A DNA stretch of 33,214 bases from Candidatus Blackburnbacteria bacterium RIFCSPLOWO2_01_FULL_40_20 (GTDB taxonomy: Bacteria; Patescibacteriota; Microgenomatia; UBA8517; UBA10165), in NCBI GenBank assembly GCA_001816475.1, contig MHCC01000003.1, forward strand, positions 1 through 33,214, given 5' to 3'. Each line of letters starts with the position of its first letter. Position 1 is the first letter of the stretch. Made by a program: the position numbers and the translations under genes. This document shows, in pieces, positions 17,580-32,908 of the stretch. The notes beneath the pieces were generated by a model that worked only from the letters and a program-made list of their open reading frames with translations, was not told the origin of the DNA and ran no database searches.

Positions 17580-20378
17580 TCATTCTTGATCCAACAGTGC
17601 AACTTGCCTGAAGTTTGAATAACTGAGTAGAGGATATTTAATGTAATATGCATTCTTTGTAATATCATTTTCGATTGCAAGGTGGGTTGCTTGACTTTCT
17701 AAGCTAAAATCCGCAGCCTTAAAATCCTGATTGTAAAAGATAACTGCCTTGATAAGTTTCATTGAAGGTATGTCCTCAGTTAATGTTTTTTTCAACCAGA
17801 GTGTCTTATTGCCGCCGCGGCTAACGGAGGACGTTTCTGCGACCATTATAGGTAGGTTAAGCTGTACAAGGTGTTGATAGATTCCTTTCGATAGATCCTT
17901 AAATGAGGTCCATCTGTTGAAAGAGTACGTCTTCCCCCAGTTAAATCCGCTAAAACCCACCCAATCAACATACATATGGCCCGGGAAGTACTCAAGTACA
18001 TTTTCGTTGTTACCGTTCTCGTCCGTATTGTTTGGGGTCCATGCCCAAATGACGTTAGAAGCTCCTTCTTGCTCAAAAATATCATGAACGTGGATCCACA
18101 TTGCTTTATAATCTTCGGGAGTGTTCCCATTTACGTTGCCCCAGGGGTACCAATTCCCATTCATTTCGTGAGCGAACCTAAGGAAAAATGGGTTTTTAAA
18201 TTTCGCTGCGCCTTTCGCCCATGCTCTAATGTAATTATCGTGTTTCCCTTGTATTATTGCTTCTAGCGAGTATTCGTTTTGGTTAATTAGTTTTGTGTTT
18301 GTTTGTTGGGAATCCCATGGTTCCCAAGTTATAACAGGAATTACATTTTTATTGTAAAGCGACTGGACAAAATCTTTATTAAAACCGCTGCTTTTGCTCC
18401 AGTCTTGGTAATACATAACCAAGGTGGGTTTTTCTCCCTCCATTAAATTTGTGGGTGAGTTATAAGGTTGTTTGTTAAGCTCTGGAAGATAATAACCGTA
18501 GTAGACTCCATTTGTGGGGACTAAAAGTTCCTGAGAACTTGCATATTTAACTTGTACTGTTTTTGCCTGAGGAAGTAATACAAAATTACCTTTTGAGTCT
18601 ATTGTTCCAATGAAATTGAACATTGTAAATGAGGTTGTAAGGGCGACAGTCGATTTAATAATAAATTGCTTGGCGGGGGCAAAATATCTTTTTGGTGAAA
18701 GTAGCGATTTGACGTTTTTTATTGCATTGTCGAAAATGCCAAGATAGGAATTTTCTTTTGCAATGAGGAAAAATCCAAGAAGAAGAAACGCAACATCAAA
18801 TATCGCCCAGAAATAATTTACGTAAGTTCCAAAGCTAATGTTGTTTCCCCTGAGCAAACTAAATGTCAAACCACACAACAAGATGATTGCTACTGTAAAT
18901 TGGATTTTGTAAACACTGAAAGGATTTTCTCTTTCATATTTTTTAATTGTAACAACAAACGCTAAGTTCTTTTGAAGGAGGCTTGAAAAGAAGGCTACCG
19001 TAAAGACTGGGAACGAAACAATATCTAAAACGATACTTTTTATTGGATGCTTAAAAGTTTTGGTATAGAGAATAAAGTTGTAGACAAGCAGTGGGCCATA
19101 GACAAATGCAAGGAAAGTTATGGTATTTGTCTTTATGAGTGGGATATCGAAAAATAAATATGGGATTGGGGCAAGCATTAGTATCAGGTCGCGAAGCCCA
19201 ATAAGATAATATGTTGCTGACAAAATATAGTGCAGTTTTTGTTTGATAGTTAGTGGACCAAAAAGAATCTGTTTTAAGTAAGCGCGGGTTACATCAAAGT
19301 TCCCTTTTGACCAACGTTGCTGTTGGCCGAAATATTGTTTAAGAGAAGTGGGCGCGAACCCCAAGGCTAATACTTTTGGCATAAACACACCCCTTTTGCC
19401 TGAAAGATGTAAATTTAGCGACGTTGCGTAGTCTTCGGTAATAAAACGAGTATCCAACCCGCCTACAGACTCAAGAGCGCTTCGCCTAATAGCAAAGTTT
19501 GTTCCGCATAAAAATAGGGAGTTGTCGTAACCCTTTGCGGGACAAACATAGTCAAAGAAGAATATTTGATGTGCAGCCGAAGCTTTGGCGACCCAGGTAT
19601 CTTCATTTTGATAACGTTGTGGGCTTTGCACAAAATCTATGTTTTTATCAGTGAATGGTTTGGTTATTTCAGTTAAAAACTCTTTTTTCGCTGCAAAATC
19701 TGAGTCAAAGATAATATCTATTGTGTTATCTGGATCTAATGACGCTGTTTTTGAAAGGGCGTTGTTGATGTTACCGGCTTTAAAACCGCCAGGCTTTCTT
19801 CGGGCAATATGTTCGACTTTTAGTTTACGGCACAGCTTTGCAATTTCAAACCTGTTTTCTTTTTTTGCAACAAACCCGTCGTTTAAGATAATTACTCGAG
19901 GTTTGTGAATTGGTTTAATCAACTTTTGGTAATAATGAGCAGCTTGTTTTGCACCAAGAATTGTGTTTCTGACAATCTCTACAGGTTCGCCGCAAACACA
20001 AACAAACATGTTTATGTGCAATCCTTTATCTCTGTTTAGGCGCAAATATTTAGGGTATTTCCTTGGCCATATTGAATAAAACATTCCGTAAAGGTGAAAT
20101 ATTGTATGAAGCTCAGCGATAAATAAAATAACACTGAAAACTACAATGAAGGGTTCAGTGTTTACCAACTGTGCTCTGAAGTAAGTGTAAGCAGTTAGAA
20201 GAATTATTCCGTACAAGACAACCGAGATGAAGGCAGCCTTTTTGATTATTGCAACAAGTTTTTTTATGATTTCCTGAAGCCAACTTATTATTGTCTTTAC
20301 AACTCTTAGAACAATCAACAGTGCCAGCAAACTTACAATTATCGTGTAAATTTTTATTAGAGATAGTATTTTTTTCAT
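17580..20378 (-). CDS. Multidomain membrane GT2 (cellulose/hyaluronan-synthase-like) fused to a C-terminal GH26-like glycoside hydrolase domain
   Basis: GT: 'VIILNDGFVAKKE', 'IIFDSDFAAKKEFL', 'FITEDYATSLNLHLSGKRG', 'QQQRWSKGN', multiple TM. GH26: 'FFLRFAHEMNGNWYPWG', 'PIMVAETSSVSRGGNK'. Confidence 0.85.
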   Translation of the reverse strand: MKKILSLIKIYTIIVSLLALLIVLRVVKTIISWLQEIIKKLVAIIKKAAFISVVLYGIILLTAYTYFRAQLVNTEPFIVVFSVILFIAELHTIFHLYGMFYSIWPRKYPKYLRLNRDKGLHINMFVCVCGEPVEIVRNTILGAKQAAHYYQKLIKPIHKPRVIILNDGFVAKKENRFEIAKLCRKLKVEHIARRKPGGFKAGNINNALSKTASLDPDNTIDIIFDSDFAAKKEFLTEITKPFTDKNIDFVQSPQRYQNEDTWVAKASAAHQIFFFDYVCPAKGYDNSLFLCGTNFAIRRSALESVGGLDTRFITEDYATSLNLHLSGKRGVFMPKVLALGFAPTSLKQYFGQQQRWSKGNFDVTRAYLKQILFGPLTIKQKLHYILSATYYLIGLRDLILMLAPIPYLFFDIPLIKTNTITFLAFVYGPLLVYNFILYTKTFKHPIKSIVLDIVSFPVFTVAFFSSLLQKNLAFVVTIKKYERENPFSVYKIQFTVAIILLCGLTFSLLRGNNISFGTYVNYFWAIFDVAFLLLGFFLIAKENSYLGIFDNAIKNVKSLLSPKRYFAPAKQFIIKSTVALTTSFTMFNFIGTIDSKGNFVLLPQAKTVQVKYASSQELLVPTNGVYYGYYLPELNKQPYNSPTNLMEGEKPTLVMYYQDWSKSSGFNKDFVQSLYNKNVIPVITWEPWDSQQTNTKLINQNEYSLEAIIQGKHDNYIRAWAKGAAKFKNPFFLRFAHEMNGNWYPWGNVNGNTPEDYKAMWIHVHDIFEQEGASNVIWAWTPNNTDENGNNENVLEYFPGHMYVDWVGFSGFNWGKTYSFNRWTSFKDLSKGIYQHLVQLNLPIMVAETSSVSRGGNKTLWLKKTLTEDIPSMKLIKAVIFYNQDFKAADFSLESQATHLAIENDITKNAYYIKYPLLSYSNFRQVALLDQE

Positions 20379-28067: not shown

Positions 28068-29153
28068 ATGCACGAATTAAAAGAAAGACTGTTTACGCTG
28101 CGCGAGCGGCTTGGGAAAATAGTCGAAGTATTAAATATTGAAGAGGAAAGAAAAAAACTTCGCGAACTTGAGGCAAAGACCGCAAAGGCAGATTTTTGGG
28201 ATGATTCGCAATTGGCAACTGGCGTGATGAAACAAATTAGTGCAATTAAAGATTCAATTGACAAAACTGAGAAAATCTCAACGCAAATTGAGGACGCATT
28301 CTCGGTTGTTGTATTACCTGACCTTGAGAAGGAAGTTGAGGCATCGGCAAAAACAATTGAAAAAGAGTTAATAGCACTTGAGGTTCTTACATATTTGTCG
28401 GGTCCAAACGACAAAAACAATGCCATTTTTTCAATACACGCGGGGCAAGGTGGAACAGAAGCAATGGATTGGGCACAGATGCTACAGCGAATGTATATGA
28501 TGTATGCCCAAAACCAAGGCTGGGAAACTGAAACTATAGATTTTACGCCTGGAGAGGAAGCTGGAATTAAGTCTATAACTTTATTGATTACGGGGCAATA
28601 CGCTTATGGAAAGTTAAAAGGGGAAGCAGGTGCGCACAGGCTCGTTCGGCTTTCTCCTTTTAACGCAAATAATCTTCGCCAAACTTCATTTGCCTTAGTT
28701 GAGGTCTTGCCAGAACTCGAGGAGGTAACAGATGTGGATATGAAAGAAGAGGATATGGAGTGGCAATTTTACCGCTCGGGGGGGCATGGAGGTCAAAATG
28801 TTAATAAAGTTTCAACTGCAGTACGATTAATCCACAAACCAACAGGAATTGTTGTTACTGCACAAACCGAAAGGTTCCAAGAGCAAAATAGACAAATCGC
28901 ATTGAGATTGTTGCGTTCAAAACTTTGGGTGCGACAAGAAGCCATAGAGAAAGAACAGGTAAAAGAGCTTAAGGGCGAATATAAGCCAGCAGCGTGGGGA
29001 ACTCAAATTCGTTCATATGTACTTCATCCATATAAGATGGTTAAAGATCTTAGGACAGATATTGAAACATCAAACACAGAGTCTGTGCTGAGTGGTGAAT
29101 TGGAAGAATTTATTCAAGGTGAGTTAAAGTATTTAGCTCAAAAGGGGTTGTAG
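28068..29153 (+). CDS. prfB: Peptide chain release factor 2
   Basis: '[26 protein letters not shown]' GGQ motif, RF2-like N-terminus 'KADFWDD'; single uninterrupted frame. Confidence 0.93.
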
Positions 29154-29674: not shown

Positions 29675-30349
29675 ATGATTACCTTCGAAAAAGTTGTAAA
29701 AAAGTTTGGATCAACCTCTGCATTAGATGAAATTTCCTTTGACATAAAAGAAGGCGAGTTCGTTTTCTTAACCGGTTCCTCGGGAGCTGGTAAAACTACT
29801 TTAGTAAGATTGCTCTTGCGTGAGCTTACTCCAGACAGTGGAAAAATATTAATCGAAGATCGAGATATCTCAACTCTTAAGTCATGTGACATCCCACACT
29901 ACAGAAGAAAACTAGGCGTTGTTTTCCAGGACTTCAAGCTATTGCTTGATAGGACAGTTTACGAGAATGTTGCATTGGCCCTTGAGGTAACAGGTGAATG
30001 GGAAAATAAAAGTTCTTCAATTAATGATGCTTTAGAAGAAGTAGGTTTATCCCAAAAAGCAAATTTATTTCCGCGACAGCTTGCCGGAGGAGAACAACAA
30101 AGAGCAGTTATTGCGCGAGCATTGGTTACAAATCCAAAACTTGTTTTAGCAGACGAGCCAACGGGCAACCTTGATCCGGCTACAGCGCGACAAATTGTTG
30201 AACTATTGGATAAGATATCCAAAAGCGGAACAACGGTTCTAATGGCCACGCACAATGAAATTTTGGTTAATTCTCTAAAACGCCGAGTTATCAAGCTGAA
30301 GGACGGAAAAGTGGCTTCGGACAAAGTTGGGGCAAAGTATGATGAGTAA
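29675..30349 (+). CDS. ftsE: Cell division ATP-binding protein FtsE
   Basis: Walker A 'GSSGAGKTTLVRLL', 'LAGGEQQRAVIARALVTNPKLVLADEPTGNLDP'; followed by ftsX. Confidence 0.93.
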   Translation: MITFEKVVKKFGSTSALDEISFDIKEGEFVFLTGSSGAGKTTLVRLLLRELTPDSGKILIEDRDISTLKSCDIPHYRRKLGVVFQDFKLLLDRTVYENVALALEVTGEWENKSSSINDALEEVGLSQKANLFPRQLAGGEQQRAVIARALVTNPKLVLADEPTGNLDPATARQIVELLDKISKSGTTVLMATHNEILVNSLKRRVIKLKDGKVASDKVGAKYDE

Positions 30350-31262
30350 AATGCTAAATTACATAAAAGTTACCAAAAAATACATTAGGCGTTCGCCATA
30401 TCAAGCTTTATCTGCGGTCTTAATAATGATAATTACTTTTTTTGTAGCAACAGTTTTGGCACTCCTAACCTATGTTTCCTACTCAACTTTGCACTATTTC
30501 GAAACTAGACCTCAAATTATTGCCTTTTTAAATGCTGAAGCAACGCCAGATCAGATTTCATCACTGCAAAAAGATTTAATTTCCGACTCAAGAATAAAAG
30601 ACTTGAAGTTTGTTTCAAAAGAACAAGCGTTAAATATATATAAAGAGGCAACTTCTGACAATCCACTACTATCCGAGCTTGTAAGTCCTAAAGTTTTTCC
30701 TGCAAGTTTAGAATTTTCTGTTACCGATTTACAGCTTACTGAGTCTGTCTTTTCCGAAATTGGGAAAAAAGATGCAGTTGGACAGGTTGTTTTTACAGCA
30801 AGCTTAGGGGGCTCAAAAAGCATTAAAGACGTAATAGATAATTTGCGCAATATTACAAACTACATAAAAATTGGTGGTGGAGTTATCGTATCGTTTCTTC
30901 TCGGATCGTCACTTATTATCTTGTTGGTAATCATAAGCATGCGCATCGCATCGCGTCGTGAGGAGATTAGAATTTTGCAACTACTGGGCGCAACTCCTGG
31001 ATTTATTAGAGCACCCTTTGTCTTTGAAGGAATAATTTACGCAATTTTAGGAAGTTTTCTTGGTTGGCTTTTTGCAACACTCGCGCTTTTGTATATTTCT
31101 CCGTCTCTTGTGAAGTACTTTGGGGACATTCCAATTTTACCGCCTACGACCAACGGTATTTTACAACTTTTTGGAGCAATCTTAGGAATTGAAGTTTTAG
31201 TAGCTTTGATTTTGGGAATTTTAGGAAGCTTTGTTGCAATCAAGCGGTACCTAAAGATATGA
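30339..31262 (+). CDS. ftsX: Cell division protein FtsX
   Basis: FtsX/permease architecture, 'SRREEIRILQLLGATPGFIRAPFVFEGIIYAILGS'; overlaps ftsE. Confidence 0.92.
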   Translation: MMSKMLNYIKVTKKYIRRSPYQALSAVLIMIITFFVATVLALLTYVSYSTLHYFETRPQIIAFLNAEATPDQISSLQKDLISDSRIKDLKFVSKEQALNIYKEATSDNPLLSELVSPKVFPASLEFSVTDLQLTESVFSEIGKKDAVGQVVFTASLGGSKSIKDVIDNLRNITNYIKIGGGVIVSFLLGSSLIILLVIISMRIASRREEIRILQLLGATPGFIRAPFVFEGIIYAILGSFLGWLFATLALLYISPSLVKYFGDIPILPPTTNGILQLFGAILGIEVLVALILGILGSFVAIKRYLKI

Positions 31263-32476
31263 TTTTTTCTTCATTTAACAAAGCGCTTCTTGTGTCCGGA
31301 ATTGTAGCTATTTTTTTGTTACGATTGCCTTTGAGTATTCTTGCTGACGAGGATGATGCCCAGTATATAGATAATTCATATACAAATGTGGGTCAGCAAC
31401 AAGGCAATGAGTCCGATTTGCAAAAAAAACTTGACGAAAACAGGCAAGAACAAGAAAGAGTTAATAAACTTCTTGGAGAGACAAAACAAAAAAAGGTTAC
31501 ACTTCAAAACGAGATTGTGTATCAAGATAATCAAATAAGATTAACTATTCTAAAAATTGAAGAAACAAAAGGACAAATAGAATCGCTGACAGAACAAATT
31601 AACAACCTTGAGGGCGCCTTAACTGATTTGTCAAAATTGTATACTGCGAGAGCGATCGAAACATATAAATTGAAAAGGCTGGGTGATTCACTAGCTATTC
31701 TTCTTACTGCAAACAATATTACTGAGTTTATATCAAGATTTAATTACCTTCAAAGAATTCAAGAGAACGACAGGCAATTGCTTTTAAAAATGCAGTCAAC
31801 TCAAAGTAATTTTGAAGATAAAAGGGCAGATATTGAAAAACTAAAAAGCAAACTTGAGCAACAAGAAAAAGCACTTGAAAATCAAAAAGGTCAAAAAACC
31901 CAGCTTTTGCAAGTTACAAAAAATGATGAAAAGAAATATCAAGAGTTGTTGGAGACTTTAAGAGCTGATGAGGACTCGATTCAAAAAGCTTTAAGCTCGC
32001 TTATTTCTCGAATTGTTTCTGGATTGGCAACAGGTTCTCCAGTAACCAAGGGACAACCAATAGGTTTGGAAGGCAATACTGGAAATGTTTTTCCCCGTCC
32101 AAGCTCTTCTTGTCCAAAATGTGGGGCACACCTTCATTATATGGTTATGCCTTGCGATATTGTTAAAAATGGCGGTCTTTCTTGCCACTCGGACCCCGCT
32201 CCTTATATGGACAACGGAGAATATGCAAAGCCTATGGATTTTTCAAACGGTTGGAGGATCTACTTGACCCAAGCGTATGGCAATACTTCGTTTGCACAAT
32301 CGGGAACTGCAGGTTATTCTTTCCACTCAGGTTTGGATTTGTCAGTAAGCTATGGTGTTGCGATAAGAAGTGTGGCGGATGGAACAGTTTATTACGGTAC
32401 CGACTCAGGTGGTGGGAAGTATGCCTTGGTTAAGCACAGAGACGACTTTTGGACTGCCTATTGGCACCTTCAATAG
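31259..32476 (+). CDS. EnvC-like murein hydrolase/activator: coiled coil plus M23 (LytM) domain with permuted motif order
   Basis: Signal peptide, long coiled coil, then 'GQPIGLEGNTGN...CGAHLHYMV' BEFORE 'FHSGLDLSVSYGVAIRSVADGTVYYGTDSGGGKYALVKH...WTAYWHLQ*'. Confidence 0.88.
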   Translation: MIFSSFNKALLVSGIVAIFLLRLPLSILADEDDAQYIDNSYTNVGQQQGNESDLQKKLDENRQEQERVNKLLGETKQKKVTLQNEIVYQDNQIRLTILKIEETKGQIESLTEQINNLEGALTDLSKLYTARAIETYKLKRLGDSLAILLTANNITEFISRFNYLQRIQENDRQLLLKMQSTQSNFEDKRADIEKLKSKLEQQEKALENQKGQKTQLLQVTKNDEKKYQELLETLRADEDSIQKALSSLISRIVSGLATGSPVTKGQPIGLEGNTGNVFPRPSSSCPKCGAHLHYMVMPCDIVKNGGLSCHSDPAPYMDNGEYAKPMDFSNGWRIYLTQAYGNTSFAQSGTAGYSFHSGLDLSVSYGVAIRSVADGTVYYGTDSGGGKYALVKHRDDFWTAYWHLQ

Positions 32477-32539: not shown

Positions 32540-32908
32540 TTAATTGACACGATCTGTTGTAAAGTCCGATATAATTTTCTGACATAGATTTTTAGTGTCG
32601 GCCATGAGTATCTTTTGCTCACTTGCTTTTGCAATGATGACTGCAAAATTATACATTTCTTTATAGGAAAGAGTGAAGTCCACGCCGTTTCTTAGTAAAA
32701 AAACGTGGGTAAATAAAATAGCCATTCGCTTGTTTCCATTTCTGAATGTTTGACTTCTAACGAGGAGGTTAAAGTAGTTGGCGGCGGCTTCAAGGACTGT
32801 AGGATTTAAATATTCCTGATTATAAGTTTGGCTAATAGTTCCAAGAATGGATTCCAAACGTCCTTCAAAACGATCTTTAAACGGAGGAATCGGTTCGTCG
32901 AATTCCAA
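32540..32908 (-). CDS. Fic/Doc-family (death-on-curing-like) protein with atypical motif
   Basis: 'NLLVRSQTFRNGNKRMAILFTHVFLLRNGVDF'; the Fic/Doc HxFxxxNxxR motif appears as QTFRNGNKR. Confidence 0.75.
   Translation of the reverse strand: MEFDEPIPPFKDRFEGRLESILGTISQTYNQEYLNPTVLEAAANYFNLLVRSQTFRNGNKRMAILFTHVFLLRNGVDFTLSYKEMYNFAVIIAKASEQKILMADTKNLCQKIISDFTTDRVN

Follow-up and report, generated by a model that had tools for sequence, protein, structure and literature searches.

A putative circularly permuted M23 peptidase domain in an FtsEX-linked coiled-coil protein of Patescibacteria

The window, a stretch of 33,214 nucleotides from Candidatus Blackburnbacteria bacterium RIFCSPLOWO2_01_FULL_40_20, encodes directly behind ftsE and ftsX an EnvC-like protein whose C-terminal domain carries the motifs of an M23 (LytM) peptidase in rotated order. 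Motif conservation, swapped profile matches, a rotation test and a compact structural model support its description as a circularly permuted M23 domain. Strongly conserved circular permutations are rare in well-studied catalytic domains, and the permuted enzyme is placed at the point where FtsEX controls the separation of cells. The group concerned, the Patescibacteria, is very large and consists of tiny bacteria, most of them uncultured, and little is known of how they divide. The protein is likely to be a PcsB-like, directly acting zinc endopeptidase of the M23 family that is gated by FtsEX.

Locus and layout of the protein

The genes are arranged in the order ftsE-ftsX-envC-like (Table 1), and the end of ftsX shares four bases (ATGA) with the start of the envC-like gene, an open reading frame with an ATG start and a TAG stop at 32474-32476. 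Upstream, an ORF at 28068-29153 looks like prfB, as judged by eye from its sequence. The envC-like gene is followed by intergenic DNA and then, on the opposite strand, by a short ORF (32540-32908) with a match to the Fic/DOC domain (2e-8). Elsewhere in the window, a 932-residue ORF (17580-20378, reverse strand) joins a family-2 glycosyltransferase to a glycosyl hydrolase family 26 domain. The source genome comes in 27 contigs, with a completeness of 98.3%.

Table 1. Coordinates of the division genes and of the parts of the envC-like protein (window positions)
Feature	Position	Strand	Support
ftsE, ABC ATPase of FtsEX	29675-30349	+	NCBIfam TIGR02673 FtsE, 270.9 bits (cut-off 264.85)
ftsX, permease with FtsX extracellular domain	30327-31262	+	Pfam FtsX_ECD 1.5e-13, FtsX 2.9e-13
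EnvC/PcsB-like partner of FtsEX (405 aa), carrying the permuted M23 domain	31259-32476	+	
Predicted N-terminal hydrophobic helix, residues 6-27	31274-31339	+	Sequence; AlphaFold2 model helix 6-27
Helical hairpin, residues 51-140, 145-150 and 154-255	31409-32023	+	AlphaFold2 model; EnvC-related coiled coil
M23 C-terminal half, moved to the front, residues 258-300 (HLH at 32129-32137)	32030-32158	+	
Segment linking the former domain termini, residues 301-334, with Cys309; Cys299 just ahead	32159-32260	+	
M23 N-terminal half at the C-terminus, residues 335-405	32261-32473	+	Pfam PF01551, profile 2-53

The hydrophobic helix is presumably an export signal or an anchor, and the helical hairpin is, by analogy with the E. 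coli system, expected to be the part that binds FtsX (PMC7668044). The M23/LytM domain occupies the last ~150 residues, in which GQPIG and HLH (residues 291-293) precede HSGLD (356-360; 32324-32338) and YWHLQ (401-405, with His403; 32459-32473), after which the chain stops. The ORF, its coordinates and this order of the HxH and HxxxD blocks are as the original prediction described them. The canonical M23 order (HxxxD, YxHL, HxH) is absent, and the permuted order recurs in 113 further distinct proteins. The Pfam M23 profile (PF01551) scores 49.3 bits against the envC-like protein, with a curated cut-off of 28.7, and its positions 2-53 map to residues 355-405 at the C-terminus, although canonically this half leads.

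Compared with the canonical M23/LytM enzymes LytM, lysostaphin and ShyA, the same motifs and both profile halves are present, but the order of the halves is swapped, the cut lying between YxHL and GQxIG. A cysteine-containing linker had been placed between the halves, which holds for Cys299 and Cys309, the only cysteines there; the CxxC pair Cys285/Cys288 instead sits in the loop immediately ahead of HLH. Because a CxxC directly before HLH or HLD occurs in just 3 of the 113 permuted proteins, it is a local insertion that is no part of the permutation, and it was rejected as a general feature of these proteins.

Evidence for one permuted domain

A PDB search with a profile of the permuted proteins gave, for many M23 chains of solved structure, matches split into two stretches. 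For 9m7n and 9gy1, where both stretches were shown, their order is reversed (in 9gy1, profile positions 315-385 match chain residues 31-91 and positions 238-283 match residues 97-142), and no chain's best stretch spans both halves. When the halves were rejoined canonically, a single near-full-length Pfam M23 match with a higher score was obtained for each of the five proteins tried. The envC-like protein scored 64.7 bits over profile positions 2-88, compared to 52.2 bits over 2-53 as found, while a relative (L065) rose from 62.4 bits in two stretches to 81.1 bits over 2-96. Both halves are homologous to one domain and stand in swapped order, as in a natural circular permutation. Since sequential searches return only partial hits for halves that are out of order, such an enzyme can easily be mistaken for a fragment.

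AlphaFold2 modelling of the domain alone yielded one compact domain (pLDDT 84.6, pTM 0.83), with strands that, in a comparison by eye, sit where M23 has strands. A Foldseek search of the PDB with this model returned no M23 structure among the top 50 matches listed, which may reflect a limit of sequence-order alignment, as this penalises a permuted domain; the full-length model matched mostly coiled coils.

The motif order is widespread in the Patescibacteria, as the original prediction had suggested it might be. A match was found in 54 of 57 related genomes, named relatives including Woesebacteria, other Microgenomates-type groups, WWE3 and a few others, and 279 of the 281 genomes of the source class match the full-length profile, some of them through the coil alone. 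In every same-order locus that has upstream DNA (28/28), ftsX directly precedes the gene and ftsE precedes ftsX. A phylum-wide domain scan also gave whole-length permuted matches outside the source class. The search for the permuted order covered Patescibacteria genomes, and the 113 distinct proteins come from the source class and 19 additional family codes within the phylum, spanning dozens of family-level groups. Nearly all stop 0-7 residues past YxH.

Residues His291, His293, His356, Asp360 and His403 are invariant in alignments of 27 and of 52 full-length relatives, which puts the rotated order far outside what chance would give, and all 52 match Pfam M23 at E≤0.001. The complete set is retained in 105 of the 113 permuted proteins. 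Of the eight exceptions, L227 and L251 stem from gaps in the alignment and L067 from a broken frame, leaving L144, L211, L223, L228 and L237, in which a residue of the set is lost; among these relatives some may be inactive, to judge from their sequences. In L211 and L223, which belong to two family groups, the histidine of HxxxD in the permuted domain is replaced by proline (PGGLD), and both domains are possibly inactive.

Function and alternative readings

E. coli EnvC acts through amidases, and a restraining arm blocks its groove until FtsEX moves the arm; PcsB is grouped with EnvC as an FtsEX partner (PMC7668044). The envC-like protein shares with EnvC the coil by profile (6tpi, E 1.1e-11; 8hd0, E 4e-14), the M23 fold and the presumed partnership with FtsEX, but the LytM domain of EnvC has the canonical order and lacks the catalytic residues (PMC7668044), whereas here the order is permuted and the residues are intact. 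Of the hallmarks of the EnvC family, the coiled-coil hairpin and the ftsEX linkage are found and the non-catalytic, amidase-activating LytM domain is not. With Streptococcus PcsB, a hydrolase controlled by FtsEX, the protein has in common a catalytic-type domain at the C-terminus and a coil match, which is weak for the PcsB structure 4cgk in the PDB profile search and below cut-off for CC_PcsB (E 1.1e-5; 31 of 52 relatives match at E≤0.001). The domains differ, being a CHAP cysteine peptidase in PcsB and a permuted M23, a predicted zinc enzyme, here. For a putative PcsB-like direct hydrolase, complete catalytic motifs and a coil that may bind FtsX are present in the sequence. The EnvC label of the original prediction is apt for the coiled coil, while the function is more likely PcsB-like; its proposal of a permuted, possibly active M23 domain in an FtsEX-linked protein is supported by motifs, profile matches, rotation, model and gene order.

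We infer zinc binding, catalysis, substrate, binding to FtsX and gating by FtsEX as follows. The envC-like protein would serve FtsEX as its dedicated partner outside the cytoplasm, with the helical hairpin docked on the extracellular domain of FtsX. Zinc would be bound by His356, Asp360 and His293, with His291 and His403 as catalytic histidines, roles which we take over by analogy to S. aureus LytM. As FtsE cycles through ATP, the hairpin bound to FtsX would move and uncover the groove of the M23 domain, and this domain would then cut peptidoglycan cross-links at the division site. The action would be direct, as is thought for the FtsEX-PcsB class, and would not proceed by activation of an amidase as in E. 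coli EnvC. Since every active-site residue is nearly always kept, the permuted enzyme probably still cuts the wall and lets the daughter cells separate.

In the model the last coil helix extends to residue 255 and a strand begins at residue 260, which leaves hardly any gap between the coil and the GQxIG/HxH half. This tether point is not ahead of HxxxD and differs from that of EnvC. Through it, movement of FtsEX could exert a direct pull on the metal site, a mechanical gating of catalysis that would be widespread in Patescibacteria; we rate this idea as rather doubtful. If true, it would be an activation mechanism for an FtsEX partner unlike the groove-blocking restraining arm of EnvC.

The same fold might serve without catalysis, as an EnvC-like activator that recruits or opens another hydrolase under FtsEX control. 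E. coli EnvC, to which the coil is related, works in this way (PMC7668044), and some relatives have lost a catalytic residue, but the general retention of the five residues and the occurrence of other peptidase-type domains on the coil speak against it. An amidase to be activated is also wanting: Pfam found neither Amidase_3 nor Amidase_2 in the source genome, although divergent amidases may escape Pfam, and Amidase_3 is present in 11 and absent in 83 of 94 class genomes, which makes such a role unlikely.

Less probable still is that the two halves are degenerate remnants of a tandem M23 array, with no single active domain or with a domain swap between copies. Permutation through duplication would indeed pass through a tandem, and a protein of phage S-TIM5 shows a YxH-like motif at each end, resembling an overlap; yet no tandem or intermediate architecture, with motifs on both sides, was found among 168 permuted ORFs, all motifs are conserved and one compact domain is predicted. 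Two degenerate domains were rejected as the main reading on these grounds. A frameshift, misassembly or truncated gene might be suspected from a frame that stops near the end of the window, but the chance of this is negligible, as more than 100 relatives share this end motif, and intergenic DNA and the opposite-strand Fic-like ORF come next. Frameshift and truncation are ruled out by these relatives, and the refuting cases of an artefact and of two degenerate domains, which the original prediction had named, are not supported. A permuted, directly acting hydrolase remains the preferred reading.

Origin and exchange of catalytic domains

A tree of the rotated domains, built on few columns and weakly resolved, requires seven changes for the permuted rows on the best tree, whereas a single clade of permuted rows was neither rejected (AU p 0.256) nor shown, so that the permutation may have arisen once or several times. 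Most permuted rows group in the tree with canonical FtsEX-linked domains and not with other M23s. Because M23 domains are built on a duplicated motif, their halves could plausibly have been exchanged at the junction.

No description of a permuted M23/LytM domain was found in the open-licence literature searched. Permuted NlpC/P60 peptidases (YaeF, LRAT-like) are already known and provide a precedent for permuted domains related to wall hydrolases (PMC6403190), although their papain-like fold is unrelated. Apparently a second, separate permuted M23 is present in the virion protein AEZ65701 of cyanophage S-TIM5, where HLH precedes HTGVD and then FLAHL. This protein was the second match of the domain model in the viral library (aligned in sequence order, TMq 0.59) and has a Pfam M23 hit, with relatives found so far in five cyanophage records only. 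Unlike the envC-like protein, it is a phage structural protein with a lysozyme domain and without FtsEX, and there is almost no sequence similarity between the two; tblastn searches of phages and plasmids recovered nothing beyond partial or split matches. Within AEZ65701 (L286:7129-10119) the permuted M23 domain is combined with a tail lysozyme domain, and the YxH-like motif found at each end of the permuted domain may have been left by a duplication.

Other catalytic domains are found on the FtsEX-linked coil. A C39-like peptidase stands on the coil beside ftsX in about 22 of 80 named loci, Woesebacteria among them, and Pfam C39 matched two of three such proteins tested. C-termini of this kind take the place of M23 in L071, L080, L083, L086, L088-L090 and L100-L114; to judge from sequence, the coil is shared and its catalytic domain has been replaced, in members of the same groups. 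In loci sampled phylum-wide from FtsX hits, CHAP-type (12) and canonical M23 (6) domains also lie beside ftsX, counts that come from a biased sample because L246-L254 were chosen through permuted-domain hits; the CHAP and some of the C39-like assignments were made by motif and not by profile. All six canonical M23 versions keep the five catalytic residues. Nearly half of the sampled FtsX genes have no recognised neighbour of the coil-hydrolase kind. As permuted M23, canonical M23, C39-like and CHAP-type domains interchange on one coil, FtsEX may be a common gate onto which varied wall hydrolases plug, an idea that can be tested. In locus L206 (G508:C4:35200-39900) a CHAP-type protein adjoins ftsX and a downstream ORF (L206|4062) has a permuted M23 match, placing two such hydrolases in one neighbourhood.
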